Position numbers and translations under genes: made by a program. The notes under the pieces were generated by a model. The model did no database searches. It had not been told where the DNA came from and saw only the letters and a program-made list of their open reading frames with translations. Positions 943-25,027 of a stretch of 29,982 bases of DNA are shown in pieces. Within the stretch, counting starts at the first letter, position 1; the number at the start of each line of letters is the position of its first letter. This DNA comes from a virus. The DNA lies in IMG/VR virus record IMGVR_UViG_3300046002_006485, positions 1-29,982 of that record; one strand, 5' to 3'.

Positions 943-3900
943 ATGCCAGAGGTCGTAAAAGGAAAAAGTTTAGCTGAACTTGGAGTTCCTAAATTAACAC
1001 GAATAGATCTTAGACGAGATGTAACCGTACCATTAGCAGCTAACTCTAATTCGTACGATAGGAACTATCGCCCAGATTATAATCAAGAAGAAAACCGAGC
1101 TGAGAACCAGAGCTTCTGGGATGCAGCAGGTAGTGGGCTACTCTCACGTTCCTTATCTATTATCCCTAAAGTAGTAGGAGGATTTGGTTCTGTACTTAGC
1201 ATTCCCAAAGCTATAGCTGACCAAGATCTCTCTCCGTTATGGGATAACTCTATTACTAAGTGGGGCCAAGAAGCTGATGAGAAGTTACGTGATGTATTAC
1301 CTACATACTCTTCCGCACAATACAATGACTCCGGTTGGATCGGTAAGATGGGAACTGCTAAGTTCTGGACAACTGACCTTGCAGATGGAATAGCGTACGT
1401 AGCATCTGCGTATGTACCCGGTGCCGTGATTGGTAAAGTGGGTGGAGCAGTTGGAACAGGAGCTAGGGCATTAACCATAGGCTCTAAGTTTGGTGCGCTT
1501 GATGAATCCTTAGTAGCTGCTACAAAAGCATTTGGACAATTAGAAGGAGCCGTGCCTGTATCTAGACTCGCTGATGCCGGCCTACAAGCTGTAGATGATG
1601 CTATCCTAAAAGGATTTGCACGTCCGGTTGCTAAGACAATACTTGGTACTCGTGACCTCGTAAAGAATACTGCTGAGTTCTTAAAGAGTGTTGCGCCTAC
1701 AGGACAACAGATTAAGCTTGCTACAAGCACAGGTTACAATACTGTAGCAGAGGCTGCAGCTGAAGCGTACGGTACACGTAAGGATGTATATGAGATTCTT
1801 ATTGAGAAAGGCGTAGATGAAGAAACAGCTAAGTTCCAAGCGGGACAAGCAGCTGCTCGTGTATTTAAAACAAACGTAGGTGCGCTTATAGTGCCTAACT
1901 TCATAGAGAACACCTTCTTACACGGAGCGTGGAGCTCTTCACAAAAGAGTTTACGATCTAAGATCTGGGCTAAGGGTGGAGCGAAAGCAGTTGAAGAAGC
2001 TGCGGTTAAAGCGAAGCTCTGGTCTAAAGCTGGGACAGGTATTCTCTCAGAAGGTTTCTGGGAAGAGAACATTCAAACCTCTATGCAGCAATATGAGAAG
2101 AACCTTGCTAAAGGAAGACTTGATGATGAGGATGATTACATAGATCAGATCATCTCTAACATGGGATCAAACATCCTAGGTTTTGCAAAGTCATTTGTTC
2201 CTGGAGCTGAGCTAACTGCTGATGAAATAGAAGGTAGTGTAGCTATTGGATTGGGTGCTACGATAGGCGGACTGTCTGGTGTTTATGGAGCTATGTTAGA
2301 TAAGAAGCAAGAGAAAGGAATGAGAACTGAGGAGTTAGCTCGTAGAGCTGATCTTTTCGGAGGTTCTTTTTCTAAAGCTGCTCACGTAGCTTTTAGAGAG
2401 AATGCTAACTCTATTAATAAAATTAGCAAGGCCGAACCTACAAAGACTATTAAATTAGGAGATCAAGATCATGAGATAACTAATTACGAGTTAGATGAGG
2501 ATGGTAATACGATTGTAGACCCAGAAGCTGTTACTCAAGTGACAACTAATCAATTGCGTGAGAAAAGATTCTGGGATGCTCAGACTGTAGCAGCCTTTAA
2601 CAATGATCCTGTTATGGCAGAGATGAACAAGCACACAGCTATGGCTTCTCATGTCTACACACTTATGAACAAAGGCTACTCTAAAGAAGAGATTGGTAGT
2701 TACTTCGATTCCTTAGAAGAAGGTGCGAATGCTGATCTGTCTGCCTTAGGGATTGAGTCAGATATAAAAGCTAATATTGCTCTAGGCAAATCATTAGCCA
2801 CTACATTCGAGAACATATCTAGTACTACATCTTCTAAAGCTAAAGAGATGGCCGATGGTCAATTTGATCTTTGGGTAAAGAAGAATTTATTCTACTCCGC
2901 AACTAAACGGAAAGCCTTAGAATCTGCAAGATCCAAAGCAACCACTGATGGTGCGAAGGAAGTAATAGATAACATGCTTAAAGACTTAGACGGTTTAGAT
3001 ACTGAACTAACCTCAAAGCGTGCAGAACTTAAGAAGACTTTTAAAGAACTCTACTTAGATGTAGAAGCTGCTAGAAATGAAGCTAAGGCTCTAGGTAAGA
3101 AAGCAAACAAAACTCCTGAGGACATAGCAAGGTTGAATGAACTTGCATACAGTCTTTCACAGAATGCTTATGCAAATGGTCCCTTTGATACAACAGAAAC
3201 TAGATTAGCACGAGCACCTATAGGTAAGAAGGCCTCGTTAGAAACTGCAGCTGCGAATAATCTTATTCGTATCGAAGACATAAAAACTAAGTTAGCAGCG
3301 GGAGCACCTGCCACTTCCTTAATGGGTATGTACAAAGGACTTCCGTACAGCAATGATGAGACAAGGGCTTTGAAAGTAACATTAGATAATAAGTTAGCAG
3401 AAGAGTCTGCCAAGCTTTCTGAAGTTGCTGCGAACTTTGAAGCAAACGTGAATGAGTTAGATGCTCTTCAAGATCATATAAATGATGAAGATCCTATGAT
3501 GTTATCTGAAATCATGGAACCAGAAGCTATTGAAGCTTTCGGATTACGTGACATGCCTTGGACTAGCGCTGCTTACAACAATAGTTCATTATTAATACAA
3601 GGTAAGATAGCAGAACATACTCGAGCTTTAGAAAATATCGCTGCAAGACAATCCACCATCAATAGATTCATGGATGGTGAGTACGATCCTCAGTTAGATG
3701 AAAGTGCTACTGTGTTGAAAGACTATAAAGCATTAGATGCTGAAGATCAAGATGCATTTGTTAATGAGCTGTTCTATAAAGAAAAGATCTTATTACCTAC
3801 AAAAGCATACATTGCTGAGTTTAGGGAAGAGTTGATTGAAGATGAAACTGCGTACGAAGCAGTGCACTCTAATCTACTTGCAGCCAAAGCTTACTTTACT

Positions 3901-6900
3901 GCACATGAAGACACAAAGAAACTCGCTCAGATAAATGCATTCTTAGATGTGCTTGAGAATAAAATATTCCCTGCATTAATTAAGAATGTGAATCAGCGTT
4001 CTGAGAAACACCGTGAGGTAAACAATGCATTGACAGCACATTTAGTAAGGGCAATCTTTACTCCCAAGATGAGTAAGTTGTTTGAGTCTGTAATAGGTGC
4101 TGAGAAAATGGCAAAAATTAAAGAGGAGCTTAATGAAGGTGAAAATGATGTACTTCCTTTTGATGGTGTTCTATCTATCGTTTCTACATTTAGAAATCTT
4201 TCTACTGCAGAACAAGAACATGAGTTCTTAGATTCACTAAAAGAGATTAAGTTCTCAAAAGATTTTGAAGCGTTTGGGTTAAAACCTGCTCGTGTAAAGG
4301 AGTTGGATACCTACTCCTTAACAGGTCCTATAGCAGTCATAGACAATCTCATACGAGATCATTATGGAGATGATGTGCCTCCGTACATCACTAAGTTCTC
4401 TAACGACTATGACTTTAACTACTTAGCTAAAGTTGCTAAGCCCGTAGACGATAAGTTCGCTCTTAAAATTAAAGACTACTATGAGCAAGCATTAGCTTTA
4501 GGGTTAATTACTAAGCTCATGGGTTCGAACTTAGATTACGTAAAGTTTGTTGCTCTTAAAGAGAAATTAGCACAACCGCCTTCCTTACAACAGAACATTG
4601 TTCTTACTCAAGGGATGTTGTTCCTTACTAATCCTCCGCTAACTGTTTCGCATGCTGGAGATAACGTATTACTATCTAAAGGTATTGGTGGTAGCGGTAA
4701 GACATTCTTACTAGCTAGTTCGCTATATGAGATGTACAAGTCGCTGAACCCAGCAGCTAAAGTCTACGCATTCTCTAAGACAAAACTTACTTCAGAGAAT
4801 ATCAATAACGCAATCTTTGGAGATAAAACTAAAGGTTCGTTTGAAGCCTTTATGGCTGCAGATATCTCCCCTTATGATTACATAGTTATAGATGAGGTCT
4901 ATACCTTTTCTAAGGAAGAACTAGATGCTATCACTGCTAAGATAAAGTCTAAGAGGATTATTGCCTTAGGCGACCCTTCACAGCTTAAAGCTGAGGCTGA
5001 GTCTTCACTCGATAAATCGCTACGTGCTTATAACACTATTCCTCTTACAACTTCGTACCGCACAAATGTAGGTTATATAGCTTCGTTTATGTCTAAGTAC
5101 CAGTTGAATGCTAAGGAGGTACAATCTCCAATTGCTACTGCTTCAGAAGAACTATCTTCTATCACAGACACATCCGCAGTCTTTGGAGTAATAGGTGCTA
5201 AAGATACTGAGTTTCAAAAACTCTTGTCTACACCTACTACACGTTCAAGAGTAGTTTTAGTTTCTTCACAAGAAGATAAAGCTAAGTATTCAGGTGTAAC
5301 TGTCCTTACAGTAGCAGAAGCACAAGGATATCAGTGGGATGAAGTGTTTGTAGATATCAATGAACTTGATTTACCTGCAGAGCCTTTCGAAATGAATAAG
5401 GTTTACTACACAGCGTATTCTCGAACTAAGTCTCTATTAGTCACTACTTCTCCTTCTGTTGTGAATGGTGCTCCTAATACTGACATGAGTTCTACGATCA
5501 CTAACTCTGTAGAAGAGCTTACTAAGACAAAGGATTACTTTAACTCTAATATCAATTCTGCTAAGAATCTTCAAAACATCTTAGCTGGTGTTACGATTAT
5601 TTCTCCTAGTGCGCTAACTGAGGTTACTGCTACTGAGGAAGATGTTGAAACTAACTCATCTGAAGACGTTGCTATAACAAGCGAAAGCTTTGCTGCAATA
5701 GATCCAGCTGATGTCGTTCTTCCAACTCCTGAACTTCAAGAAGGAGAAGCTTTCCTTATCAACCCTACTAACTACGCTTTTTCAAGAGGAAACGTGCCTA
5801 CTTCAGGTATTGGCCATATTATTCCTTTATCACGTAATGGAGTAAACTTCTATCAGGTAGTAATGAAAGGTAACGAAGGTAAGTACTATAGAGTTGCGGT
5901 TCTCTCCGAAGAGGAAGCGAAGACTATTCCGCTTAAAGGAATGCCTGTATTAAATGAAGCAGCACTTACTGAAGTCATCCCAGATATCTCTTTAATCTCT
6001 GCTGGAGAAATTGAGATCACACGAGCTGATGCATTATCCATCTCTTACATTCCTGGAGCATTTGAAACAGCACAGCCTGCTTACGACAATGGAGCTACTT
6101 CGTTAATCGAGGATGTAATCATTAAGTTCTACACTTCTTACTACGGTACACACCCTTCAGGTTTAGAATTCATTCAATCTCTTAATCCGGAAGAACGTTG
6201 GGTAAATAAAAATGCAGATGGTACGTACACTGTTAACTGGAAAGCAATACAGCGTACAGTTAAAGACCCATCAGGTAATGATGTGATTGTTTCTGATATC
6301 AATCTTAAGATCTTTGACAAGCATAAAAACAAACCCCCTAAGGAGTTAGCTCACGTCACGCCTGCTCCAGGCTTTCCTTACTTAATCTTTAGCAACCTTA
6401 AACGTGTTGGTAGGGAAGGTATTGTAACAGCTTCAGAGAAACCTTTTGTAATACCTCTTAACTCTTCACCATTAGATGCATCTTCAGTTTCTAATTTAAT
6501 AGAGTTCACACGTGCTGCAGAAGTGTTAGAGCAAGAACTTGGAATTCCACTTGGTTCAGAAGAGTTTGGTGATACTGTACGTTCTGCTTCTGAACATTAT
6601 GAAGTAGATATTGATACGCATACTGGAGAAAACACTTACGGAATTAAAAAGAAATCTACTGCTCCTCCTATCTCTTCCGCAATGGATCAGGTTGTAAGAG
6701 GTGTGTTTGGTGGAACTCGTAGGATGGTCACGTTCGAAACTGAAGATGAAGCAGTTGAGTATCTAAATGAGAATGGAACTACCATCGAAGGCACTGATTA
6801 CTTTAAAGTAAATGGAGATGTAATTGTAGCTATTACTGAGACTAAGAATAAGCGATTCAGATTAGAAGCTTCTACTGATGCAACTAATCGAGAAGAGAAC

Positions 6901-9900
6901 ACAATCCCATATAAGCAGTTGCAAATGCGTGAAGGTATGGGCCCAGCTCAGCATGAATTTAACAACCTAGCTAAAGCTAACTCTAATGTAAATGGAGAAC
7001 AGCTCCGGAGAAACTTGATGAAGTGGGATCCAGTGCAAAAGAAGAATGTGAAACAGTCTGGTATGTATCGGGCAGGTTCGTTGCTCACTAACTATGAAAC
7101 AGATGAGAAAACTGGAGATAGTTTCGTAAAAGAGTTTGTTGATTATGATAGGCTCTACGCTAATCCTGATGTAATCGCATTACTTGGAGAAGGTGTGCAG
7201 TTTACGGACCAAGATAAACTTTCTGATCTGCGTACTGCGCTACAACGTGCGTACCAAGATAGAGGCAGTGATGCAGCTACAGCACGAGGACAAGCAGAGA
7301 ATGTAATTTTCTTCTTTACTTCTGCCGAGACCACACTCCCATTCTTACAAGCAATTGTTAATCCTATCTTAGAAGAGGGAGCAAATGGAAATTTGAACAC
7401 TCCTTTAAAGATGTCAGAGATCAGCAGAACTAATCTTGCGAAAGATCACAAAACTGTATCTCAACAACTTTCGTCTAGCTTCATTAAAGTTAATCCTACA
7501 ACTGTTACTTACAAGTTAACAGATGCGATTGTAGTGGGGCCTGAAGTTGAGAAAGGAAAAACTTATGGAGCTAAGGAATTGTTTAGTGAAATGAAGGTTG
7601 TAGGTGAACTCGAGCGAATACGTTTGCTAGTGGAAACGGCATTACCTGAGCAAGCTAAAGTATATGAATCTCTTAAAGGTATATATCTTAATGGTGAGTA
7701 CCGTAAGGATTTAGCTATGACAGCTTTAGATGAAAATGGAGTATTTTCCATTAGTGTTGGGTTACCCGTGGGTAAAATAGAGTCTCATCTTATGTTGCAT
7801 GAAGGATTGCATGCTGTTACTAAAGCTTCATTAATGAAAGGAAAAAAGGATAGGTTATCTAAAAAAGATACTCCTGAAGCCTTATTATATCAACGTATAG
7901 CAGCACTTAAGAAACGTTTTGATGGTGCTGTCAAAGGTAAAATTAATCCTGACACAGGAAGTAAATATAAGCTAACTGAGGTATATGAAACAACACCTTC
8001 TGAACTTGACATTTTTGAGTTCGTTGCATCGTTATCTAATCCTAAGTTCAGAGAGCTTGCTAAGTCAATAGAAGTGTTACCTAAGTCTAAAGACTCTATC
8101 CTAAAACGGTTACTTCAAACGATCTTAGATTACTTAGCGGATATCTTAGGACTGGATGCTAATGTTTATGATGCAACACTTGCCGTACTTGAGAACTTCT
8201 ATGGTGACACAAAGGCTCAATTCTTACGGCCTGCTCCACCAGTTGTAGTAACGAGATCTGTTACCGAAGTGAAAGCTGAGACTCTTGGCCGGCTGAACAA
8301 ACAATTGAATGATGCAGATGAATATGAGTTTGATGAACTTGCAGCTAATGTAACTAGTAGTTTTCCTATGTTGGAGAGAATCCCTACATATGGTGAAACT
8401 TCTAACCTTAAGTTCAGGGATAGCTTCTTGCTTCTCCCAGAAGAAGAGCAATTACGAATTCTTAGTAGTATAGGCACATCTTCATTCGCCTACGTTAATC
8501 AGAATGTGGAACAGGTATACACGCACTTAGGAACTATCTACACATCCAAATCAATGGGTTTGTACTTAGACACACTACTTGCTGGTAAGGAACTAACTAA
8601 AGAACAGATTAACTTAATCAAGTCTATCATATTCTTAGATGCTTCTAATCCAACTACTAAGTTAATTCCTAACATCCTTAAAGCAGTTACCAATGACCGG
8701 GATGCGTTATATGATATTCTGTTTACTCAAGTCTTCAATAACAAAGACAAGTCAGAGTTCCTTATAAAAACTAACTCGACTACTAATCGTGAAGCCTTCA
8801 CTAAGATGATGACCTTGCCAGAGTTTAACAAACTGTTTGAAGCATTAGGTTACTTGGTTATGCCTGAGATTGCACTCGCGATTCAGAAGGTTGAAGATCG
8901 TTCAGCTGCACGTTATATAGTAGCTAAGAACTTAGTTCTTAATACGGTTTCTGCTAATATGGCTAAGACAACTGAAGTGATGAAGATTAGGAATGAGTTA
9001 TTCGCAGAGCTTAAAACTAATCTTTCTAATCCAGCATATGTTTTCCCTAATGGATTGACTCGCTCAGGATCTGCTAAAGCAATCAAAGCGTTGTATGCTG
9101 AATTAGGAACAGCGAATTCTAATCGTAAAGTTGAAATTCTATATAATGAATTGCCTGCTCTCGAAGATATGTTAGCTGGTATTGATTCTCTTACGTCAAG
9201 CAATACTAAAACTAACACTTTAGTTCTTAAGGACATTATCAAGGATATCTATCCTAACACAAACTTTGATGAGAATGCTATTGGACGTGTGAACTTGGAG
9301 CTTGCTGAGTTAGGAGAAGAGGAATTCTATTCAGGTGATACTGAGTTAAAAGAGTCTTCTGGTATCTTAGAATATCTTAAGTTATATAACAAGTCTTATG
9401 AGACCACACTCTCTGAAAGTATGAAGGACTTCTTGTCTTTTGTGCAGGTAGGTAATAGGTATCTATCATCAGCACTTGTGTACATTAAGACAATGCAGCT
9501 CGCTTCTACTCTTGATTGGACTCAAAGTCTTTCGAGTACCAAGAACTCTATCAGTGCGCAGTTGTTAAAACTTAAATCTGATTCTGGTCTTTCAGGGTTA
9601 GATCTTGCAATCATAGATAACTTATATAACAATATAATCCTTGCTACTAATAACAGTTTTGTAGATGGCGTAACCATCCCTACGAATCTTCATATTACAG
9701 CAGTGAATTCTATTGCAGGCGTAAATGCTTACATTGCTTATGAAGCAGACGGTATAAAAACTCTTGCTGAGTTAGAGAAGCTTCCTACATCAGGTAAGCA
9801 GATGACATCTAACTCACTATTCCTTTTCCTTAAGGCGAAGAATAATGCTCTTACGATTGCACAGTTCAATAAGATGTTACACAAGGCAGATGCTATAAAC

Positions 9901-12900
9901 GTCTTACGAGGTGTTCATAATACTATGGCTTCAATGAAGGAAACAGATTTGTTTATCTCTACACGTACATCTGCAGAAGGTAATACATTCCGTATGGTTA
10001 AGTCTCGTTCTTCTGACGTTTCTGTCACTATTAAAGAGTTTATCTCTAATGAATTGTATGAGCGTTTTGGTAACGGCACTTTGAAAAGTCTGCACACACT
10101 TTATTACGATCATAAGTTCGTGTCAGAAGGCAAGCCTACAACAATACGGGCTGCACTAAGTAGTAACCCAAAAGCTAAGAAAGTGGCTATTCGATATTTC
10201 TATAAGATGCTGAATCTTCCAGCTAATAATCTGACGATTAAAGATGAGGAGGTTGCTGAGCTTGCAGAGAAGATAAAAGGATTGCTTAGCCATACTGCTA
10301 AAGTCACTTCTGACATTGTTACTTCTGAAGATGATACTGTTAAGGTGTTTAACTTCCCTGAATGGCTAGAGAGTGTCGATGGTTATATCTCTGAGATCAA
10401 TAAACCAATGGCTAGATCTGATGAGTTTATTCGTAACCCATCTGTACTCGATCTTAATGGTAATAAGTTCTATAAGTATCACGAGTCTTCCTTTATGTAT
10501 GATGTACTCAACAACATTATAGATATAGATTCTTCTTTAATCAACTCACAATCAACTAAGAATTCTAAATTTAGAGTTGTGCCCGATCACCTACTTACCG
10601 ACTTACATAAGCATAATATATTTATACAGTCTCCAAAAAGAGCTGCGAATAGAATCTATGCTGTAGGTGAGTATGCTGGCGCTAAGAATAAAGACAATGG
10701 CTCTTCAACCGAGTACCTACGTGAGAACAAGTTCTTTTTCTTCCAGCGTAAGTTTATTACTGGATTTGTAGACGGCATTCGTCAATATGGAAATTCTTAC
10801 CACCAGTTTTCTTTTGTTCCTTCAGACTCTCCTAAGCATCCATTAGTTCGTTTAGGATTACTTTCTATGGACAAGACAAAATATGGTATAGCAGAAATGT
10901 TTGATTCTTTAAAAGCGAAAGCAAATCTATTAGAAAGAGGTATCATAGATATCGAGAAGTATGAGAAGTCACTTAGTTCTAATCTATTCGCTAACTTTAA
11001 AGTTGGCTTAAAGGTAAGTACTGAGTTTCCTAATTGGAGAGAGATTCCTTCTGATGAACTCGCAGCTCGTGCTTACGATTACTTAAAGAAAGAAGCGCTT
11101 ACTTACTTAGAGAACAATATTAAAGAGTTAGAACCTTCTTTTGATAAACGAATGATCGCTACCATGCTTTCTTTACGAAACGCTGAAAAAGAAAAGAACC
11201 TCTTTAGTGGTGAGTTTAATGAACTTTTAGATACTATTCAATATGACTTTACTAAAGGTGAGGAAATTATTAATTTTAAATCTAGTGATAAGGGCAATAT
11301 AAATTTAATTTTACCATTGTTTACTCTTTTTTACTTAAATAACACTGTTAACTCTTATCATTTAAATCAATTATATTTAGGTGACTACTCAGCGTTTCCT
11401 TCTGTAGATATGATTATTAAACGTTTTGCTGGGACAAAAGCTCCTGGTATTCGTGGGTTAGTTGACCCAATAATAGGTATGAAAGAGACCTACAAACTTG
11501 CTATCCTTGCTGATACAGTAGTCGGATTAGAAACTACACGAGCTAAGTTTGCAGAGCTGTTCTTCGGCGGCGTAGTACCTGAGAATGAGAAAGAAGAGTT
11601 CGAAAACTTTATGACATTTTTTGGTGATGAGTTTGAGTCTACAGATGCGCAAGGGTTTATGACTCCTGCTCGCTTAGCAGATCTTTCTAAAGGCTTTGAG
11701 AAATCTTGGACATTAGGTAATGTCCACAAGCCTGTGTACTTCGGTATAGACCCACATACTTTCAATGATAAAGATGGTAACCCTGTAATGAGTACTTCAA
11801 TCGCTCGGTATGTTAAAAACTCTACAGTAGTCCTTACTGACGAGTTATGTGCTAAGTTTAAGTATCTTGCAAGGTTACGAGAAGTGATGGAGAGTCAGGG
11901 TAATGATGAAGCTGTCTTTAGATCCGCTGTCAAAGTTGGATTGCCTATTTTATATTCTGAAGAAGGTGTGCCTTTGAAATATCCTACGATGGCTAATATT
12001 ATGAAAAAAGTAGCTGGCAAGGATACTGATTTATCTTCTTTAGAAGGAATAGGAGCTGTTGGAATGTTAAGTGATTTTGCAGATGCATATGATTCTGCGC
12101 CAGTACTGCCATCTCTTACGCTATCTAATCACAATTATCGGTTACAGTTCAATGCTACTACAGACGTAGAGAAAGATGTTTCAGTTTACTCTCAGTTGAT
12201 GTACTTCTTAAATGTATATGGAGACAAGCTTAAGAATCCTGCTTACGAGAATACACAAGTTGCAGCAAGACAGGTGTATGATTTGATAGCAGAGTTAATA
12301 AACGATGGTAAGAAAGAGTTCTTCGATACTTTAACTAAAGAAGGGTTGAATAAATACTTAGCTAAGAACTTGGGAGGTTCAGGATCTGAAAGAGCTCTTG
12401 ACCTTATATATAATGGTGTAAACCATAATCACCCAATTCTTGAGAAGAAAGGTATCATTGCACTTGCTTCTGGTTTAGGAAAATCTACTACCAAGATTAA
12501 GTTTAAAGGTGGTAAGCTTGTACTTCAAACAGCAGAAGGTGTGTCTTGGGATACAGGAACAGATATAGTTGCAACTAACAAAACAAATCTAGATGCGCTT
12601 ACTTACAAGTATGAAGAAGTAAATGGGAGAAAAATGTTAGTAGCTGAAGTTGTAGTTCCTGCTGAGTTACTTACTACAGAACAGCGTGTGGCGCTTAAGA
12701 ACGGCCAGAGTATTTATACTATGCCTGATGGTATGGCATTTCGTATTCCTTCTACTGAACTCCACTCTGCAATTGCATTTCGTATTGTAGACACATATCC
12801 TGGTGGTAAAACAAACGTGATTATAGCTCCTAAAGAGTTAGTGCCTATTCATGGTAGTGACTTTGACGTAGATAGTCTCTTTGTAATTATGCGTGAGACT

Positions 12901-15900
12901 GTAAGCATTTCTGAAGCTTCTTATGTAGATGGAATTGTGTTAACAGGACTTATATCTAAACTTGGACAAGTGTTTAATGAGTTAAAAAGTTTAGAAGATA
13001 CACTTGAAAGTCAAGAAGACATATTAAAACTGCAGGAATTAAAGCGTACGTTTAAAGAACAATTTAAGTTATCCGTAGAAGTTGCTACAGCTACTACTGA
13101 TAGTGGACTTGAGTTAGAACGTAAGTTCCAAGAGGCGTTCATAGCTTCTAAAGCTCCTAATGAAGCTACATTCCGTAAATCTTGGATGAAACGTAATCAC
13201 ATAGTAATGGGTCCAGATAAAATTATGGAACCTACTGTATTAAGTGCGTTTTCAGAAATGATTACTAAGATTGAAGACTTCTCAACCTTAAATCCTTCAT
13301 TTATTCCTTATCTCGAGACAGTTCTTAAGTTTATAACTGAGATAGTTTCTACTGAAGATGTGATGATAAATACTAATGCCGATACTCCAGTAGGTTATGA
13401 GGTTGTAAACAACAAGTATTCTTTATCTAAAGAATACCTAAACTATATCAAATATAACTTAGCTGCACTAGAAAGCTTAGAAGGTTCTCTACAAGAGGAG
13501 TTAAAAGCTGGGTTTGGAGGATTAATTTCTAAAAGTATTAAATCTCTCAAGTCTCTCAAAGCTAAGTACCTTAAGAACTCTGTCACAGAGACTATGTTAG
13601 ATGTTATTACGGACGAGAACAATAAGTATCGTATGACTACCCCAATTGCCTTTACTGCTCTTACAGACATCATTGATGATGATTTCTACAAACAGTTTCA
13701 ACAAGGTAAGGACTTAGATTTAACTAACTTAGAAGATGAGTTTCAAGCATTCGAAATGCTTACAGCTGGTGTTGTATTAACTGGTGCCTTTGCTAATGCA
13801 GCTAAATCATTTGGTTACTTAGCTACTGCTGGTGCGGAGGAAACTTTAAATAAAATTTATATTTCTATTGGAGAACTTCAACAAGAGTTATTGATGACTT
13901 CTGATGCTGATAAGAAAACTGCGCTTAATAAACAGATAGATAATTTACAGAAAGCTAAGGACGACTATTATAAAACTTTCGAGTTTAAAGAGTACCGTTC
14001 ACCGGTTCTAAATTATGATACTCGCTATCGCTTCAATATAAACGGAGAAGATACACTGTTTGATAGGATCGCTACTAAAGATGCTGAAGGCAAATACTTA
14101 GTTACTCAAGTTCTTGATACACTTACTAATGCTGCGATAGATAACTTGAAACTTGGTTATTTATATCGCGCTGGTATTAACCAGAACATAGGTAATGCAG
14201 TAGTAGGACTTGTTTCTACAGGTATGCCAATGGAAGCTATAATTGCGTTATTATATCAAGATGTATTCAAACCATTAACTAAATCTAAAGTTAAGAACGC
14301 TAGTACGTTTGTAGCTGATCTTTTAAAGAAGTACCCAGTAAGTACTAAGGTGTTGTCTCTCGAAGATCTGAAAAATAATATAACAACTCCTAATGATGAA
14401 ATCACTGCAGCTGCGGTTCATCTTTTCGCTAAAGGCTTTAAGATTGGTGGGGATATGAGATCATTATCTACGTTCCTTAACATTGTTAAAGAGCAGGAAG
14501 TGTTTGTTCAGAATATCTTTAAGAACCAAGAGTTGCTAGAAGCTAAGATAGGTACATATAAAGATGGAGTACTTAAGTCTCGTCAAGACTTCTCATTCAT
14601 TATTCCTAACATGTTCAACTCTGCGGCACATTTAAAAGCTGCTTACGAAGTAAACACGGATCTGATTTCCTTTATTAAAGACAAGTGGTCACTCCACTCT
14701 GATCCTATGATACATATGTCTAAAGAAGTTTACAAAGCAGTAACGCTTAACTCTGCAGATGAAACTGGAGAAGAGTATGTTAAAATTCGCCGTGCATTCT
14801 CTAATTACCTGCTAGCTTCTGACCCGTTAATCAAGTCGAGGCTTTCCTTAGTAACTCCTAAAGCAGTTACTCTTTCTGATGGAGGTTCATATGTACTTTC
14901 TAAACAAAGAACATTTAATGATGAAGTTGCTACGTTTATTCAGAAGTTACAAGCTTATGACAGAACTCACCCATTAGGTGAACGTAACGAATTCTTAAAC
15001 ACGCTTTCTATACAGTTTAATGATCAGAAAGTTCGTACACTTAGTTTTAGAGCAGGTATAGGTATTCAACCAGAAGATATTGCTAAACTTGCATTAGGTT
15101 TTAAACAACTTAACCAGTATACAATCATCAATGGTGAAGTTACAAGATCCTTAGTTCTTGATTCGTCTAAGGTATCTCCAATACAACGAGATCTTTTAGT
15201 TTACGCGTTACTTAACCTAGGACTTGATAACTCATCTTCTTCTTACGCAGCGTATATTCCATCTACAATGTTTAAAAACGTTATAGATAGATATGTAACT
15301 AAGTTGACAAACGCTTCTGAAGGTGTTACAGGTGCGCAGCTTAATCACTTTGCGTTGTTTAACGTAATTACAAATGCAAATAGGCTACCTAAGATCTATT
15401 ACGATAGATCTGCTTCGTTCATTCCATATGATCCAGTTACACAGGCTAAAGCTATAGATGCTGGTTATGAAATAATAACATTACCTAACACGGATACTCG
15501 TATTAAGGTGTTCTTTGATAAAAGGTTTACTCCTGAGAAGAACGATAAAGGAGAAGCCAAAGCTTTCCCACCTTACATTAAGGATACATACAAGCAAAAA
15601 ACTACTGTGTTTAAGCTTGTTCTTTTTACCCCAGATTACGGGTATTACCAGAAAGTGGGAAATATAAATGATGTTTATTATACAGAAACTCCTGATAACT
15701 ACAATATAGCAACAAACTTTACTCCTACAGAACTTACTGTTCATACAGTTCAAGAGTCTCCAACTACTGCACTTACTTACTCTAAATTAATTAACGGAGT
15801 TAAAAAGGATGATATAATTTTTATAACTCCTAGTTATAACTATGATCGCTCATTACGTAGGAAAGTACAAGTAGGAAGCGTTACTAAGAACCCAACAGGT

Positions 15901-16077
15901 TCAGGTATTATCATAAAGTTTCAAGACATCTCCGATACAGCAGTATTATCTGATTGGGATGAAGACGGAGTACCTAAGTCAGTAGATAACGTGTTAAGAG
16001 CCTTCGGTTTAAGTCTTGAGGAATTTTCACAATACAGTCCAGAAGAGCAACAAAAATTATTAGATTGCAATGGCTAA
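943..16077 (+). CDS. Giant crAss-like virion protein: SF1 helicase, zincin peptidase and virion RNA polymerase in one chain
   Basis: A single uninterrupted 5044-codon gene. Seen in order: two Gly/Ala-rich, membrane-like segments (about residues 150-172 and 407-455) in an N-terminal part that resembles ejected phage proteins; charged coiled-coil stretches (about 640-900); an SF1 helicase with Walker A GIGGSGKT 1247-1254, Walker B IDEV 1316-1319, GDPSQL 1343-1348, TSYRTN 1370-1375 and YTAYSRTK 1489-1496; a zincin motif HEGLH 2286-2290 with a candidate third ligand E2359 in FEFVA; and the polymerase loop GSDFDVDS with Asp 3973, 3975 and 3977, preceded by RIPSTELHS. The loop matches the DFDID of the phi14:2 virion RNA polymerase (gp66, about 2180 aa) and YonO-like two-barrel polymerases, whose aspartates bind catalytic Mg. 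In relatives the enzyme is packaged, injected and transcribes early genes. This chain is more than twice that length. The peptidase might cut the chain, which is inference. The ATG follows the previous stop by one base, and the end overlaps the next gene by 8 bases. Confidence 0.92.
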   Translation: MPEVVKGKSLAELGVPKLTRIDLRRDVTVPLAANSNSYDRNYRPDYNQEENRAENQSFWDAAGSGLLSRSLSIIPKVVGGFGSVLSIPKAIADQDLSPLWDNSITKWGQEADEKLRDVLPTYSSAQYNDSGWIGKMGTAKFWTTDLADGIAYVASAYVPGAVIGKVGGAVGTGARALTIGSKFGALDESLVAATKAFGQLEGAVPVSRLADAGLQAVDDAILKGFARPVAKTILGTRDLVKNTAEFLKSVAPTGQQIKLATSTGYNTVAEAAAEAYGTRKDVYEILIEKGVDEETAKFQAGQAAARVFKTNVGALIVPNFIENTFLHGAWSSSQKSLRSKIWAKGGAKAVEEAAVKAKLWSKAGTGILSEGFWEENIQTSMQQYEKNLAKGRLDDEDDYIDQIISNMGSNILGFAKSFVPGAELTADEIEGSVAIGLGATIGGLSGVYGAMLDKKQEKGMRTEELARRADLFGGSFSKAAHVAFRENANSINKISKAEPTKTIKLGDQDHEITNYELDEDGNTIVDPEAVTQVTTNQLREKRFWDAQTVAAFNNDPVMAEMNKHTAMASHVYTLMNKGYSKEEIGSYFDSLEEGANADLSALGIESDIKANIALGKSLATTFENISSTTSSKAKEMADGQFDLWVKKNLFYSATKRKALESARSKATTDGAKEVIDNMLKDLDGLDTELTSKRAELKKTFKELYLDVEAARNEAKALGKKANKTPEDIARLNELAYSLSQNAYANGPFDTTETRLARAPIGKKASLETAAANNLIRIEDIKTKLAAGAPATSLMGMYKGLPYSNDETRALKVTLDNKLAEESAKLSEVAANFEANVNELDALQDHINDEDPMMLSEIMEPEAIEAFGLRDMPWTSAAYNNSSLLIQGKIAEHTRALENIAARQSTINRFMDGEYDPQLDESATVLKDYKALDAEDQDAFVNELFYKEKILLPTKAYIAEFREELIEDETAYEAVHSNLLAAKAYFTAHEDTKKLAQINAFLDVLENKIFPALIKNVNQRSEKHREVNNALTAHLVRAIFTPKMSKLFESVIGAEKMAKIKEELNEGENDVLPFDGVLSIVSTFRNLSTAEQEHEFLDSLKEIKFSKDFEAFGLKPARVKELDTYSLTGPIAVIDNLIRDHYGDDVPPYITKFSNDYDFNYLAKVAKPVDDKFALKIKDYYEQALALGLITKLMGSNLDYVKFVALKEKLAQPPSLQQNIVLTQGMLFLTNPPLTVSHAGDNVLLSKGIGGSGKTFLLASSLYEMYKSLNPAAKVYAFSKTKLTSENINNAIFGDKTKGSFEAFMAADISPYDYIVIDEVYTFSKEELDAITAKIKSKRIIALGDPSQLKAEAESSLDKSLRAYNTIPLTTSYRTNVGYIASFMSKYQLNAKEVQSPIATASEELSSITDTSAVFGVIGAKDTEFQKLLSTPTTRSRVVLVSSQEDKAKYSGVTVLTVAEAQGYQWDEVFVDINELDLPAEPFEMNKVYYTAYSRTKSLLVTTSPSVVNGAPNTDMSSTITNSVEELTKTKDYFNSNINSAKNLQNILAGVTIISPSALTEVTATEEDVETNSSEDVAITSESFAAIDPADVVLPTPELQEGEAFLINPTNYAFSRGNVPTSGIGHIIPLSRNGVNFYQVVMKGNEGKYYRVAVLSEEEAKTIPLKGMPVLNEAALTEVIPDISLISAGEIEITRADALSISYIPGAFETAQPAYDNGATSLIEDVIIKFYTSYYGTHPSGLEFIQSLNPEERWVNKNADGTYTVNWKAIQRTVKDPSGNDVIVSDINLKIFDKHKNKPPKELAHVTPAPGFPYLIFSNLKRVGREGIVTASEKPFVIPLNSSPLDASSVSNLIEFTRAAEVLEQELGIPLGSEEFGDTVRSASEHYEVDIDTHTGENTYGIKKKSTAPPISSAMDQVVRGVFGGTRRMVTFETEDEAVEYLNENGTTIEGTDYFKVNGDVIVAITETKNKRFRLEASTDATNREENTIPYKQLQMREGMGPAQHEFNNLAKANSNVNGEQLRRNLMKWDPVQKKNVKQSGMYRAGSLLTNYETDEKTGDSFVKEFVDYDRLYANPDVIALLGEGVQFTDQDKLSDLRTALQRAYQDRGSDAATARGQAENVIFFFTSAETTLPFLQAIVNPILEEGANGNLNTPLKMSEISRTNLAKDHKTVSQQLSSSFIKVNPTTVTYKLTDAIVVGPEVEKGKTYGAKELFSEMKVVGELERIRLLVETALPEQAKVYESLKGIYLNGEYRKDLAMTALDENGVFSISVGLPVGKIESHLMLHEGLHAVTKASLMKGKKDRLSKKDTPEALLYQRIAALKKRFDGAVKGKINPDTGSKYKLTEVYETTPSELDIFEFVASLSNPKFRELAKSIEVLPKSKDSILKRLLQTILDYLADILGLDANVYDATLAVLENFYGDTKAQFLRPAPPVVVTRSVTEVKAETLGRLNKQLNDADEYEFDELAANVTSSFPMLERIPTYGETSNLKFRDSFLLLPEEEQLRILSSIGTSSFAYVNQNVEQVYTHLGTIYTSKSMGLYLDTLLAGKELTKEQINLIKSIIFLDASNPTTKLIPNILKAVTNDRDALYDILFTQVFNNKDKSEFLIKTNSTTNREAFTKMMTLPEFNKLFEALGYLVMPEIALAIQKVEDRSAARYIVAKNLVLNTVSANMAKTTEVMKIRNELFAELKTNLSNPAYVFPNGLTRSGSAKAIKALYAELGTANSNRKVEILYNELPALEDMLAGIDSLTSSNTKTNTLVLKDIIKDIYPNTNFDENAIGRVNLELAELGEEEFYSGDTELKESSGILEYLKLYNKSYETTLSESMKDFLSFVQVGNRYLSSALVYIKTMQLASTLDWTQSLSSTKNSISAQLLKLKSDSGLSGLDLAIIDNLYNNIILATNNSFVDGVTIPTNLHITAVNSIAGVNAYIAYEADGIKTLAELEKLPTSGKQMTSNSLFLFLKAKNNALTIAQFNKMLHKADAINVLRGVHNTMASMKETDLFISTRTSAEGNTFRMVKSRSSDVSVTIKEFISNELYERFGNGTLKSLHTLYYDHKFVSEGKPTTIRAALSSNPKAKKVAIRYFYKMLNLPANNLTIKDEEVAELAEKIKGLLSHTAKVTSDIVTSEDDTVKVFNFPEWLESVDGYISEINKPMARSDEFIRNPSVLDLNGNKFYKYHESSFMYDVLNNIIDIDSSLINSQSTKNSKFRVVPDHLLTDLHKHNIFIQSPKRAANRIYAVGEYAGAKNKDNGSSTEYLRENKFFFFQRKFITGFVDGIRQYGNSYHQFSFVPSDSPKHPLVRLGLLSMDKTKYGIAEMFDSLKAKANLLERGIIDIEKYEKSLSSNLFANFKVGLKVSTEFPNWREIPSDELAARAYDYLKKEALTYLENNIKELEPSFDKRMIATMLSLRNAEKEKNLFSGEFNELLDTIQYDFTKGEEIINFKSSDKGNINLILPLFTLFYLNNTVNSYHLNQLYLGDYSAFPSVDMIIKRFAGTKAPGIRGLVDPIIGMKETYKLAILADTVVGLETTRAKFAELFFGGVVPENEKEEFENFMTFFGDEFESTDAQGFMTPARLADLSKGFEKSWTLGNVHKPVYFGIDPHTFNDKDGNPVMSTSIARYVKNSTVVLTDELCAKFKYLARLREVMESQGNDEAVFRSAVKVGLPILYSEEGVPLKYPTMANIMKKVAGKDTDLSSLEGIGAVGMLSDFADAYDSAPVLPSLTLSNHNYRLQFNATTDVEKDVSVYSQLMYFLNVYGDKLKNPAYENTQVAARQVYDLIAELINDGKKEFFDTLTKEGLNKYLAKNLGGSGSERALDLIYNGVNHNHPILEKKGIIALASGLGKSTTKIKFKGGKLVLQTAEGVSWDTGTDIVATNKTNLDALTYKYEEVNGRKMLVAEVVVPAELLTTEQRVALKNGQSIYTMPDGMAFRIPSTELHSAIAFRIVDTYPGGKTNVIIAPKELVPIHGSDFDVDSLFVIMRETVSISEASYVDGIVLTGLISKLGQVFNELKSLEDTLESQEDILKLQELKRTFKEQFKLSVEVATATTDSGLELERKFQEAFIASKAPNEATFRKSWMKRNHIVMGPDKIMEPTVLSAFSEMITKIEDFSTLNPSFIPYLETVLKFITEIVSTEDVMINTNADTPVGYEVVNNKYSLSKEYLNYIKYNLAALESLEGSLQEELKAGFGGLISKSIKSLKSLKAKYLKNSVTETMLDVITDENNKYRMTTPIAFTALTDIIDDDFYKQFQQGKDLDLTNLEDEFQAFEMLTAGVVLTGAFANAAKSFGYLATAGAEETLNKIYISIGELQQELLMTSDADKKTALNKQIDNLQKAKDDYYKTFEFKEYRSPVLNYDTRYRFNINGEDTLFDRIATKDAEGKYLVTQVLDTLTNAAIDNLKLGYLYRAGINQNIGNAVVGLVSTGMPMEAIIALLYQDVFKPLTKSKVKNASTFVADLLKKYPVSTKVLSLEDLKNNITTPNDEITAAAVHLFAKGFKIGGDMRSLSTFLNIVKEQEVFVQNIFKNQELLEAKIGTYKDGVLKSRQDFSFIIPNMFNSAAHLKAAYEVNTDLISFIKDKWSLHSDPMIHMSKEVYKAVTLNSADETGEEYVKIRRAFSNYLLASDPLIKSRLSLVTPKAVTLSDGGSYVLSKQRTFNDEVATFIQKLQAYDRTHPLGERNEFLNTLSIQFNDQKVRTLSFRAGIGIQPEDIAKLALGFKQLNQYTIINGEVTRSLVLDSSKVSPIQRDLLVYALLNLGLDNSSSSYAAYIPSTMFKNVIDRYVTKLTNASEGVTGAQLNHFALFNVITNANRLPKIYYDRSASFIPYDPVTQAKAIDAGYEIITLPNTDTRIKVFFDKRFTPEKNDKGEAKAFPPYIKDTYKQKTTVFKLVLFTPDYGYYQKVGNINDVYYTETPDNYNIATNFTPTELTVHTVQESPTTALTYSKLINGVKKDDIIFITPSYNYDRSLRRKVQVGSVTKNPTGSGIIIKFQDISDTAVLSDWDEDGVPKSVDNVLRAFGLSLEEFSQYSPEEQQKLLDCNG

Positions 16078-19000
16078 ATGCGTAAATATTAATAATCCGG
16101 AGTTTAAGGCCCTCCAAGAACAAACTGGCCTTTCAGTACCATTGTTATCTGCTAAGGTTGCTATCTGGCAGGATAAGAATAATGCGGATCATTTTCCAAA
16201 TGCGAATGAGATAGTAGGGGCTTCGGCCCCCTCAATTTCAGGAGTTGATATAGCCTTTAGAAAATATCCACAGTTAAGTACTGTTGGTAACCAGCAAGAA
16301 TATGCAGCTTACTTAAATTCTATTTTCCCTAAATCAGCGATTAAAGATATTGTTTATCATGCTGGGCAAATTAATACGCAATTTCCAGAATACATGGATG
16401 TTCGTAATGGAGAATTAGAAAGTCTCAGATTACAAAAACAACAAGGTACTTTAGAAGGATTCGATCTGCAAAGATTACAAAGTCTGGAAGAATATTTAAA
16501 GCAACCTAAGAAGTTTGACAAGAGTGCTATAGGTTTGTCTGGGTATTCAGGACTATACCCTTCAGGAGCTGGTTTTTATTTTGGTCTTGGTTATGAAAGT
16601 ACTGTTAGTGAATATGGAGAACCTGGGCTATTCTTAGTGAATATAAAGAACCTTCTCACTTCTAAGTCTAATGATTTTCCTGCTATTATGGACGATTTCA
16701 GAGAGCAGAGATCTAAACACATACTCCCATCATTAGGTAAGGATCAAGGATATGATGGTGTATACAATGATGAGTACGATGAGATTGCAGTACATGAACC
16801 AGAGCAGGTACATTTTATTGGCACTCCTGAAGATGTAAAAGCATTCAGAGATTTCCTTACTCTTAAGTACCCCGTTTCTCCCTCTTACTCTGTGTTGTCT
16901 AATGCAGTTAAAGATGAGATTAAACAGGTGTATACAATGGATGGTGAAGAATACCAGACAGTGACTAATGAGTTTATGCCTGCTATGCAACATAAACCAT
17001 TTACTCTTGTGGATACTTTCGGAACTCGTCAAGCTGATAACTTTTGGAAAGATACTGACAAGACTGAAAAGAAGAAGTTCTCTCAGTTCGTTACTGCAGT
17101 AGATTATGAAACATATAAACGATTAGTAGATGAGACCTATGAGATAGGTAAGTACAAAGGAATAATCTTTCACAAAATTATTTCTAACTTTATTTCTGGT
17201 GATAACACGGGTTTATCTGAGATGTATTCGGTATCAGGTATTGCGCCTAAAGAATTTGATTGGTTAGATGCTGAAGCAATAAAGCGTATTATTGGTCGAA
17301 CAGGCACAAATGCATATAACGATAATCCTTCATTACGAACTGATAAGCTTATTGCGGAACCTTCTATGGTAAGTAAGATTATGAACGTAGGGGGAACACC
17401 TGACTTAGTAATAGATCATGGTGGAGATATTTTTAGTGTGTTCGATCTAAAAACAGGTAAGCATTTTGATAGAAACTTTGAACTTGATTTCTTTAAATAT
17501 GGAAGAGCTGGAGATGCTGATATCTTCGTAAACCCTCGTAACAAGGCTAAGCTTCAGATCATGCTATACGCTATGATGATTAAGCTGAACAATCCTAAAG
17601 CGCGATTTAAGAATTTGGAAGTGGTGCACGTAACTAATCGTTACAATATAGATGAGATAGACTCTGCACGATTCATCAACACACCCGCTTACCTTAAGAT
17701 GATTAAGTCGTATTTACAGGCTGAGCGTCCTTCTACTTACAAAGCTATGTTAGAAGCTTCCCCTTCTATATTTGATACAGCCACATATAACTATGTCTCT
17801 GCTAACAAGTATGGTAACAAGGAAGCTGGAGAAGTGCTTAAACTTAAGATGTTAGAACTTCAATCTTTAGTTATGTTTGATACTAATCTATATAAGAACA
17901 TAACAGTAGGTAAGCACTCAGGTAAGGAGAGATATGTGCAGATAGCTGAGCTTATTAAAGAGATTAACGAGTTAAAGAGAGATCCTGAAATGGATCTCAA
18001 GTCTTGGGATACTGATATGGGTTGGATGGATCGTTGGATGGGAACTAATACAGCTTCTACTAATCCTTATATCAAGGCTTATTACTCGATACTTTCTGAA
18101 AAGAAACAGCATGCGAGGACAGCGCATGGTAAGTGGAGAGCTGCTTTTGATGATGTACTGAACCCGCTAATAGAAGAGCGTACAGGTAAGCCGTACTCTA
18201 AAGTAATAGGTGGAATAGATCGCACAAAGCTTTTCGAATGGGCATATAAAGGAACTCGGTTATATCATGCTGATGACTCTGAGTTTAAGAGTTTTTCTCA
18301 GGCGCAACAGAACTTTTTAAACTTTGTAAACAACTCTGTTGAGATGTTCTTTAACGACAAGTTAGCTAACTATGAGAATATTCCTAAAGGCAACACTGCA
18401 CTAGCTAATCGAGTAGTTACATTTACAGAGCGCGCTGGCCGCAAACTTAATGTGACCAACCTTGACCTGTTTAATGGTAAGTACTCCAACTCTTCTCGTC
18501 CTGAGTTTGCTTACTATAAAGGATTCTTTCCTAAGTATGCTCCTCAGTTATATGATGTAGCTAGAAGGTACAGCACTTTCTCTAAAGAAACGTTAAAGTT
18601 TATCTACAATCGTACTTTCACGTATTACTACGAAATGGTGTTTGACAAGTGGGATGCTTCTCGTGAAGCTATTCCTATGAAGTATTTAGATAATGATCAT
18701 ATCATGGATCAACAAGCCTACACACTGAACCTTGAGCTTTCGTTAGATAACTTTGTAAAACAGAACTTTTACAAGCTTCATATGGATGAGGTTTATGCTT
18801 ATGGGTTAGGTCTTAAGTTATATCTTGACTTTAATAAGCGAATGGAAAATGGTGCAGAAAAGCCAAGACTTGAAGCATATATAGAAGACTCAGTTAATCT
18901 TCATATTTTAGGTAAGAAATCTACAGGAATTGATTTTAGTGGCCGTTCGTTTGGCAAAGTAACAGAAGAAGGTTATAAACAGTTTAGTGGAGTTAAGTTT

Positions 19001-20380
19001 CTTCGTTCAGTTAAATCTTATTTTAGTGGAGTTACTATGTGGTTAAAACCTGTTTCAGGTTCTGTAAACGCTGTGTTTGCTAATCTTGTAACTCTTAAAG
19101 AAGCAGCTCGTAACTCTTTTGGTTCTAAGGTAGGCAATGCGTCTTTTGGTCTTTCTCATCTTCGAGAAGGATATGCTGAAGCAATTGGCATGTTTGGTCG
19201 AGATGCATTTACAGGTAACTTTCGCACCACTAAAGGTTGGTTACTCATGGAACAATTTGGATATATGCCTGATAATGTGGATTGGTACTCATCTAAGAAT
19301 GAAATGTTGACAGCTAACAATAATTTATTCACTACTAAAACTTTAACACTTTTTCACTCTTTACCTGAAGAAGTACTTGCGACTTCTATGTTTATAGCGC
19401 AACTAAAAGCTATGAAAACTGTAGATAAGAATGGTAACGAGATCTCAATGTGGGATGCTTATGAAGTTGTAGATGGCAATATTACTTACCAAGGAGGATC
19501 TCGTGGGCAGCGTAGCACCTCTAATTTCTCAGACAAACCTTCGTATAAGGAAGTACTGGGCTTAGAAATAGAAGAAGTAAATGCTATGAAATTTCTTTAT
19601 GAGAAGATTCATGGAGGTTATAGGTTAGATGAAAGAGTAGCTGCTGAGTATTATATACTTGGTGAACTTATGATGCAGTTAAAACGTTATCTTCCTTCAA
19701 TACTTAAAAATGTTTGGGCATCGCGTGGAACGAGACAAGGAGAAGGCTTTTTTAAGAAGGAAGTTGATATCCACGGTAAGGAGATACTTAAGTGGGATGC
19801 ATCTATTGTAGAAGGCCGTTGGAGAATGTTGTTAGGTTTACTTTTTAATAGGTTAGCTATACAAAATTCTACTCCAGGAGATAAAGGTTCTAAAATACGT
19901 GAGTTCTTTGGTTTTCAGTTTGATGAGTCTTACGATTGGGATAAGCTTTCTGAGCAACAGAAAGAAGATCTTAAAGACTTTGCCATTACTTCAGCACTCT
20001 ACTTCTTTATGATACTTGCAGGTAAGAGTATGTGGGATGATGACGATAAAGACACTACTAAGAAAATGTTCTACCGGATCACTGATGATTTTGGTTCGTA
20101 TGTTTCTCCAATAGAGATTCTTAAGAATGCGATTAATCTTTCAGCTCCAGTTACAGCTAAGAAGTCAATTGCAATGTTAGATTCATCTTCTAAGTTTTTT
20201 TGGAGTGTGCTTATGTACACAGTTGGTATGGATGATAAAGCATTAACACGAGACGGTAATTTCCGAGGGAGTAAAGATCTTCAGAGAAGTATTCCTTTTA
20301 TTTCTGCATATCACGATTTATATTCTAAGATGGAAAATGATTCTTACTTTCAACAGTTTTTGGATGTGAGAACTTATTAA
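16070..20380 (+). CDS. Giant virion-module protein with putative ADP-ribosyltransferase and RecB-like PD-(D/E)XK nuclease domains
   Basis: 1436 codons, starting in an ATGGCTAA overlap with the polymerase gene and ending TAA just before the terminator. Residues about 90-260 read like the ART domain of phage polyvalent proteins: YHAG (H97), GAGFYFG (Y170), LFLVNIKNL, YDGVY, then DEIAVHEPEQV (E238), a plausible H-Y-E triad. Residues about 430-505 form a RecB/Cas4-type nuclease: GTPDLVID (D445), FDLKTGK (D459, K461) and QIMLY (Q496, Y500). The remaining 900 residues match nothing I know; they contain many aromatic and basic residues and an acidic run DDDDKD near 1325. Position after the virion polymerase suggests a co-packaged cargo protein that could act on host DNA or proteins early in infection; that role is inferred. 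Function of the ART domain is less certain than the nuclease. Confidence 0.88.
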   Translation: MAKCVNINNPEFKALQEQTGLSVPLLSAKVAIWQDKNNADHFPNANEIVGASAPSISGVDIAFRKYPQLSTVGNQQEYAAYLNSIFPKSAIKDIVYHAGQINTQFPEYMDVRNGELESLRLQKQQGTLEGFDLQRLQSLEEYLKQPKKFDKSAIGLSGYSGLYPSGAGFYFGLGYESTVSEYGEPGLFLVNIKNLLTSKSNDFPAIMDDFREQRSKHILPSLGKDQGYDGVYNDEYDEIAVHEPEQVHFIGTPEDVKAFRDFLTLKYPVSPSYSVLSNAVKDEIKQVYTMDGEEYQTVTNEFMPAMQHKPFTLVDTFGTRQADNFWKDTDKTEKKKFSQFVTAVDYETYKRLVDETYEIGKYKGIIFHKIISNFISGDNTGLSEMYSVSGIAPKEFDWLDAEAIKRIIGRTGTNAYNDNPSLRTDKLIAEPSMVSKIMNVGGTPDLVIDHGGDIFSVFDLKTGKHFDRNFELDFFKYGRAGDADIFVNPRNKAKLQIMLYAMMIKLNNPKARFKNLEVVHVTNRYNIDEIDSARFINTPAYLKMIKSYLQAERPSTYKAMLEASPSIFDTATYNYVSANKYGNKEAGEVLKLKMLELQSLVMFDTNLYKNITVGKHSGKERYVQIAELIKEINELKRDPEMDLKSWDTDMGWMDRWMGTNTASTNPYIKAYYSILSEKKQHARTAHGKWRAAFDDVLNPLIEERTGKPYSKVIGGIDRTKLFEWAYKGTRLYHADDSEFKSFSQAQQNFLNFVNNSVEMFFNDKLANYENIPKGNTALANRVVTFTERAGRKLNVTNLDLFNGKYSNSSRPEFAYYKGFFPKYAPQLYDVARRYSTFSKETLKFIYNRTFTYYYEMVFDKWDASREAIPMKYLDNDHIMDQQAYTLNLELSLDNFVKQNFYKLHMDEVYAYGLGLKLYLDFNKRMENGAEKPRLEAYIEDSVNLHILGKKSTGIDFSGRSFGKVTEEGYKQFSGVKFLRSVKSYFSGVTMWLKPVSGSVNAVFANLVTLKEAARNSFGSKVGNASFGLSHLREGYAEAIGMFGRDAFTGNFRTTKGWLLMEQFGYMPDNVDWYSSKNEMLTANNNLFTTKTLTLFHSLPEEVLATSMFIAQLKAMKTVDKNGNEISMWDAYEVVDGNITYQGGSRGQRSTSNFSDKPSYKEVLGLEIEEVNAMKFLYEKIHGGYRLDERVAAEYYILGELMMQLKRYLPSILKNVWASRGTRQGEGFFKKEVDIHGKEILKWDASIVEGRWRMLLGLLFNRLAIQNSTPGDKGSKIREFFGFQFDESYDWDKLSEQQKEDLKDFAITSALYFFMILAGKSMWDDDDKDTTKKMFYRITDDFGSYVSPIEILKNAINLSAPVTAKKSIAMLDSSSKFFWSVLMYTVGMDDKALTRDGNFRGSKDLQRSIPFISAYHDLYSKMENDSYFQQFLDVRTY

Positions 20381-24035: not shown

Positions 24036-24319
24036 TATACTACTGTTATCTTCAGTTTTGGATAATTCTTTTTTAGGCCGTTATAATTATAGTTAGCTAT
24101 AAGTAGTTTTGCAACGACATCAATACTGATAAATACAATAGGAGTTGTTTCATACAAACCTCCATTTAGTTCATCTAGACGAAGAAGAAGTTCATCTACT
24201 TCTGTGATCTGAGTTAGATCATATTCATATTTCTTTGGTTTAGTTGCCCACCAAGCAAAGATTATAGTTAGCGCCATGACACCAACTGCTAAATACCAAG
24301 GTATTATACATATCACCAT
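24035..24319 (-). CDS. Hypothetical membrane protein
   Basis: 94 codons starting at ATG 24319, 7 bases inside the end of the uracil-DNA glycosylase gene. Residues 1-25 (ICIIPWYLAVGVMALTIIFAWWA) form one hydrophobic segment followed by KPKK, giving a single-pass protein with its C-terminus probably cytoplasmic. The soluble part contains ITEVDELLLRLDELNGG and VFISIDVVAKLLIANYNY. No family recognised. A membrane protein inside a DNA replication operon could tether replication to the host membrane or modify it, which is speculation. Confidence 0.72.
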   Translation of the reverse strand: MVICIIPWYLAVGVMALTIIFAWWATKPKKYEYDLTQITEVDELLLRLDELNGGLYETTPIVFISIDVVAKLLIANYNYNGLKKNYPKLKITVV

Positions 24320-25011: not shown

Positions 25012-25027
25012 GCGTAGTTTATTATAA

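Follow-up and report, generated by a model that had tools for sequence, protein, structure and literature searches.

A giant crAss-like phage protein predicted to join an SF1B helicase, a zincin-like peptidase and a two-barrel RNA polymerase

The giant reading frame and its modules

The window, i.e., the whole stretch of DNA analyzed here, is a complete IMG/VR fragment of 29,982 nt. Its plus strand contains an open reading frame (ORF) at positions 943 to 16077 that encodes 5044 aa (559.6 kDa) without an internal stop; the base composition gives an open run of 5046 codons a log10 probability of about -159. The same frame, with identical length, is present on two further IMG/VR contigs of about 59 kb each (G001 and G002), and G001 shares 99.8% identity with the window over 25.8 kb. 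The original prediction had placed a helicase, a HEGLH motif with a downstream E2359, and a DFDVD loop in one open frame, and all of these motifs were found at the residues it gave, in a frame that is unbroken on both contigs. An assembly or frame artefact, or a chance set of motifs, was ruled out with near certainty, because the same frame and length occur on the two other contigs and the same order of modules occurs in more than 25 divergent loci.

From the N terminus, the chain contains a cargo module, an SF1B helicase, a zincin-like peptidase, and a two-barrel RNA polymerase. As judged by homology, it is a colinear fusion of the phi14:2 virion proteins g067 and g066, with the helicase and the peptidase lying between them. 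The description of the protein as a polymerase plus a helicase was thus right in that both are present but incomplete, since g067- and g066-like proteins flank a helicase and a peptidase in one chain and a nuclease follows. With several enzymatic domains (helicase, zincin, and polymerase) in one chain, the protein belongs to the phage polyvalent proteins, and, judging by its homologues, it may be delivered into the host at infection.

The phage is assigned to the crAss-like phages (Crassvirales) by its terminase large subunit (TerL; 4e-77), portal (8e-100), and major capsid protein (MCP; 6e-60), as identified on contig G001 using PHROGs, with the MCP matching those of Fpv and crAss-like phages. 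The genes on the 59-kb contig are ordered as tail, cargo, the giant gene, the next gene, and a divergent replication block. In the window, this block encodes a DnaB-type helicase and a uracil-DNA glycosylase (24313 to 25065, minus strand; Pfam UDG, 1e-15), and PHROGs additionally identified a DnaG-like primase and an exonuclease-VIII-like gene.

The N-terminal cargo module (1030 to 3042, plus strand; residues about 30 to 700) is homologous to phi14:2 g067 and crAss001 gp47. The first 700 residues of the chain match both proteins, and the similarity to g067 was detected by BLASTP (9e-19) as well as by HMMs. Upstream of the giant gene, the window lacks 155 nt relative to G001 at positions 343 to 346, which breaks the frame of a 641-aa cargo gene into ORFs at 2 to 355 and 375 to 941. 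The copy on G001 is intact, and the gap is either a strain variant or an assembly error.

The helicase (4510 to 5577, plus strand; residues 1190 to 1545) was identified by Pfam (Viral_helicase1, 1.6e-12, and AAA_30, 2.4e-9; a Pfam value of 5e-13 was also recorded), by PDB profile search, by AlphaFold and Foldseek, and by an alignment of 35 sequences. A full set of SF1 motifs had been predicted at residues 1247 to 1496, and it was borne out: Walker A GIGGSGKT (residues 1247 to 1254; 4681 to 4704, plus strand) is followed by GDPSQ at 1343, SYRT at 1371, and TAYSR at 1490, and the catalytic residues K1253, D1317, E1318, D1344, Q1347, R1373, and R1494 are invariant in all 35 sequences. The AlphaFold model (pLDDT 88) has the tandem RecA-like fold. 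Its best Foldseek match is RecD2 (3gp8, 2.8e-12), with further matches to RecD, SLFN11, nsp13, and Dda, and the profile search matched sequences of Dda, Pif1, and RecD. By sequence and model, the enzyme is classified as a helicase of the SF1B (RecD/Pif1/Dda-like) type. Members of this group are translocases that move 5' to 3', and the same polarity would be expected here. Among 12 long related contigs, the only AAA_30-type helicase above the cutoff is that of the giant chain. It is unlikely to be the replicative helicase, since the phage encodes its own DnaB-type enzyme. In tblastn searches against annotated phages, two versions of the helicase gave no match. A relative of the helicase was also found on contig L126 (CALUMZ010000018.1) of an uncultured Muribaculaceae metagenome-assembled genome, which is possibly a hint to the host and possibly a binned phage.

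The zincin-like peptidase region (7468 to 8250, plus strand; residues 2176 to 2436) was delimited using alignments A4, A6, and A7 and hhalign. The predicted HEGLH (residues 2286 to 2290; 7798 to 7812, plus strand) and the downstream glutamate both stood as motifs: the H/E/H residues are kept in 48 of 48 sequences, and E2359 (8017 to 8019, plus strand), the probable third zinc ligand, in 46 of 48, which is the pattern of a zincin-like metallopeptidase. Together they fit a domain that precedes the polymerase in many crAss-like phages and is present in crAss001 gp47. The window copy is divergent and was tied to the other crAss-like zincins by profile comparison (hhalign probability 92.6, E value 4.6e-7), and the zincin profile weakly matches Zmp1/PPEP (0.007). 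Its AlphaFold model is poor (pLDDT 54) with no significant fold match, and the weak fold matches were disregarded on account of the quality of the model. Locus L004 carries two tandem zincin-like domains (HEFIH and HEVMH; 4851 to 5645 and 5633 onward); the HEGLH of the window corresponds to the first, and the place expected for the second lacks an HExxH. In six other loci (L034, L035, L046, L050, L053, and L063), a second HExxH lies about 1,000 to 1,300 residues after the DFDxD loop.

The two-barrel RNA polymerase core (11272 to 12942, plus strand; residues 3444 to 4000) was recovered by an HMM (4e-204) and by profile A3, which was built from the window and four metagenomic relatives and contains no known crAss sequence. 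The sole PDB match of A3 was 6VR4, the structure of phi14:2 gp66 (2.1e-28 over 504 positions), covering chain residues 869 to 1402. The DFDVD at residues 3973 to 3977 (12859 to 12873, plus strand), already proposed as the mark of a two-barrel polymerase, falls on the DFDID of phi14:2 g066, the catalytic aspartate loop. The choice of the phi14:2 enzyme for comparison was also apt, gp66 being 2180 aa long with its DFDID at 1361. This homology across the double-barrel core with its DxDxD loop places the polymerase, as far as sequence can, in the crAss-like two-barrel virion RNA polymerase type. In tblastn searches against annotated phages the window polymerase gave no match, and only the G005 polymerase reached named phages. 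The region C-terminal to the core (13375 to 15969, plus strand; residues 4145 to 5009) is also conserved (BLASTP to the G003 homologue, 7e-43). About 2,700 residues, including the peptidase, separate the helicase from the catalytic loop.

The next gene (16070 to 20380, plus strand; 1436 aa) overlaps the giant gene by 8 nt and is the counterpart of phi14:2 g065 and crAss001 gp49. It matches g065 by BLASTP (3e-9), with the similarity to g065 and gp49 located at the C terminus, and it is joined to the giant chain in several relatives, including those of G003 and G005. A PD-(D/E)XK nuclease is predicted at 17258 to 17593 (plus strand; D445, D459, and K461). The Pfam value is 0.034 in the window and ranges from 1e-7 to 4e-5 in the fused relatives; D445 and K461 are kept in 34 of 34 sequences and D459 in 33 of 34. 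A resemblance to the end of an ART-PolyVal ADP-ribosyltransferase was noted at 16703 to 16813 (about residues 212 to 248 of the product, P0002). In cr4_1 (5e-9) and cr55_1 (6e-10), the corresponding gene does encode an ART-PolyVal domain. Such a domain was rejected for the window gene, its E value of 0.19 being below significance and BLAST giving no match to the cr4 and cr55 copies.

Distribution of the helicase among crAss-like loci

About 100 loci were surveyed. The order of N-terminal module, helicase, zincin, polymerase, and nuclease module recurred across one clade, as a survey for the same domain order proposed earlier had been meant to ask. The helicase-peptidase-polymerase order was found in 33 genomes, in 27 of them within one chain and in 6 as separate genes. 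A tree was built from 78 polymerase cores by a quick search; its root is arbitrary and some of its branches are long. In it, the 33 upstream-helicase rows and 4 rows of unscored helicase status formed one branch with an SH-aLRT value of 99, and no member lacking the helicase was found in this branch. The helicase did not serve as bait for most of these genomes, since 29 of the 33 were returned by the polymerase similarity search.

The genes break at differing junctions. In the window, one gene holds the N-terminal module, helicase, zincin, and polymerase, and the nuclease module follows separately. Seven loci (L052, L053, L054, L056, L057, L063, and L066) have all modules in a single chain of 6,000 to 6,600 aa, the N-terminal module being unscored in L063. 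In L078 and L080, helicase, zincin-polymerase, and nuclease module are three genes; in L059, the helicase stands apart from a zincin-polymerase-nuclease chain; in L064, a helicase-zincin gene is followed by the polymerase gene; and in L004, the helicase gene is followed by a small zincin gene and then by a zincin-polymerase gene. In most split cases the helicase-bearing gene is directly upstream, and in L083 the helicase and polymerase genes are about 3.2 kb apart. At some of the breaks only one in-frame stop intervenes, which would allow for recoding or readthrough. Within chains, the spacing is steady, with 970 to 1535 residues from P-loop to HExxH and 1197 to 1685 from HExxH to DFDxD.

A different helicase subfamily, with a support of 100 in the helicase tree, occurs at the C terminus of the polymerase in two other lineages. 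One consists of the gut Suoliviridae proteins cr118_1 gp14 (YP_010110531, annotated as "exonuclease V"; 4946 aa; L127, 6325 to 21165) and cr50_1 gp59 (YP_010110216, annotated as "DNA helicase"; 4774 aa; L128, 3094 to 17418), both of which also hold a zincin and a two-barrel RNA polymerase that is missing from their annotation. The other is represented by contigs L100 (7505 to 16237) and L116 (7373 to 16513), which lie near phi14:2 in the polymerase tree and encode phi14:2-like polymerase chains with a C-terminal SF1 helicase, an arrangement unlike that of the window. The window chain is not of the Suoliviridae type either, as its helicase lies upstream of the zincin and takes a separate position in the tree. 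In the helicase tree, which has no root, long branches connect the two groups; separate acquisition of the two subfamilies is the simpler reading, and a single ancient helicase that changed place is a possible alternative.

Possible roles of the helicase

The reading we favor, with about an even chance of being correct, is that virion cargo and a transcription block are combined in one chain that acts as an early-transcription machine with a DNA-opening motor. The giant chain would be part of the virion and would be threaded, along with the DNA, into the host, where the polymerase would transcribe early genes from the incoming genome. Running 5' to 3' on the nontemplate strand, which is the direction of transcription, the helicase would open or pull the duplex for the polymerase, and the peptidase would probably act at the junctions between modules, cleaving the giant chain or a partner either while the virion is assembled or once it has entered the cell. 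Such processing by a zincin has been proposed for polyvalent proteins (PMC5512222). Injection is suggested because the phi14:2 and crAss001 homologues occur in virions: phi14:2 g065, g066, and g067 were annotated from virion tandem mass spectrometry, and crAss001 gp47, gp49, and gp50 were found in virions, with the cargo presumably passing through the tail in a partly unfolded state (PMC10172136). A cargo of 560 kDa is plausible because the 5002-aa chain of Thermus phage P23-45 is full-sized in virions (PMC10770324).

The proposal that the helicase is a DNA-opening or translocating motor for the polymerase was strengthened in one respect, in that the pairing is clade-wide and recurs in other lineages, and a functional link is argued because the pairing is kept throughout the clade and is present in another form elsewhere. 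The coupling to transcription itself is unproven by sequence and may be put forward because it is the most economical reading of two enzymes that travel together, with a 5'-to-3' polarity equal to the direction of transcription. Several observations count against it. The polymerase chains of phi14:2, crAss001, and Fpv3 do without a helicase; the intervening peptidase could part the helicase from a loop some 2,700 residues away; and the adjoining PD-(D/E)XK nuclease is a partner more typical of DNA processing. The poorly modeled zincin fold of the window copy also weighs against the overall explanation. The most specific version, in which an injected polymerase throughout the clade is served by a same-chain SF1B helicase that opens the duplex, other crAss lineages came to this separately at the other end of the chain, and the peptidase matures the chain, is held tentatively and judged to fall short of an even chance.

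The strongest rival, unlikely but of real weight, is a role in DNA processing or host takeover. The helicase and the nuclease of the next gene would work together in a RecBCD- or Dna2-like manner, be it in the processing of phage ends, in recombination, or in the breakdown of host DNA, and the chain would merely deliver several effectors together, as a polyvalent protein from which the peptidase frees them. The conserved catalytic residues of the nuclease, its fusion to the helicase chain in L052, L053, and G003, the RecD2/RecD-like fold of the helicase, the ART-PolyVal domains encoded by the corresponding gene in cr4_1 and cr55_1, and the description of polyvalent proteins with several effector domains (PMC5512222) are all in line with this. 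However, in the helicase clade the helicase adjoins the zincin-polymerase part and not the nuclease, and Pfam detects no nuclease in the next gene of cr118_1, which has the C-terminal-helicase form.

A motor for genome entry, with the helicase pulling phage DNA in, alone or with the polymerase and in the manner of T7 transcription, is improbable. The N-terminal module does belong to ejected cargo proteins (PMC10172136), and translocation is what SF1B enzymes are generally known for, but such helicases are loaded onto single strands, whereas the genome enters as a duplex, and nothing links the helicase to a membrane channel. Still less probable, to the point of being very doubtful, is that the helicase joined the cargo once and was retained for single delivery with no physical role beside the polymerase. 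The gene boundaries move freely among relatives, so the covalent linkage is dispensable, which agrees with modules that work when separate; yet every scorable member of a deep clade has kept the helicase, its catalytic residues are invariant, and the pairing with the polymerase is seen again in other lineages. If the helicase is tied to the polymerase, as in the favored reading, it would offer a testable answer to how an injected polymerase can initiate on double-stranded DNA without help from host factors.

Comparison with known systems

Phi14:2 shares with the window the homologous polymerase core and DFDxD loop of gp66 (6VR4) and homologous neighbors, g067 and g065, in the same order. However, these are three separate proteins without a helicase, and neither g067 nor g066 contains an HExxH. 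In crAss001, gp47 combines the N-terminal module and the zincin, gp50 is the polymerase, and gp49 matches the next gene; unlike in the window, these are separate genes and there is no helicase. HMMs detected no helicase remnant in the giant or polymerase chains of phi14:2, crAss001, and Fpv3. In cr118_1 gp14 and cr50_1 gp59, a zincin, a polymerase, and an SF1 helicase share one chain as in the window, although the helicase is C-terminal and of the other subfamily. Public giant proteins labeled "DNA helicase" and "exonuclease V" thus contain an unannotated RNA polymerase.

The polymerase of phage N4, gp50, is of the T7-type single-subunit family. Like the window chain, this ejected polymerase is a giant and carries an HExxH domain of the zincin type, and the consulted parts of the sources mention no helicase (PMC12633501, PMC5512222). 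In P23-45 gp96, a two-barrel polymerase and a metallopeptidase are likewise part of a giant virion protein, but here the fusion is with a tape measure protein and a helicase is unmentioned (PMC10770324). The polyvalent proteins of Iyer et al. (2017) are also multienzyme chains with a zincin hub and include phage polymerase-zincin chains; their helicases are of the SWI2/SNF2 type, with UvrD present in a few actinomycete plasmid-type proteins, and in the portion of that study consulted none stands beside a two-barrel polymerase (PMC5512222).

Among crAss-like phages, giant proteins reach about 6000 aa (PMC10136315), and giant multidomain transcription proteins, one with DxDxD and some with PD-(D/E)XK, are described in PMC7886860, whose Fig. 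3 is a domain map of them. The zincin fusion is already stated in a GenBank note. A helicase-polymerase fusion was not described in the text of the openly accessible papers searched, although two such giants bear names in GenBank that refer to their helicase, and earlier recognition of the helicase in Fig. 3 of PMC7886860 is possible. Giant virion polymerases and peptidase fusions were therefore already known, and what is new is that the helicase is not a one-off but is paired with the polymerase across a whole clade.
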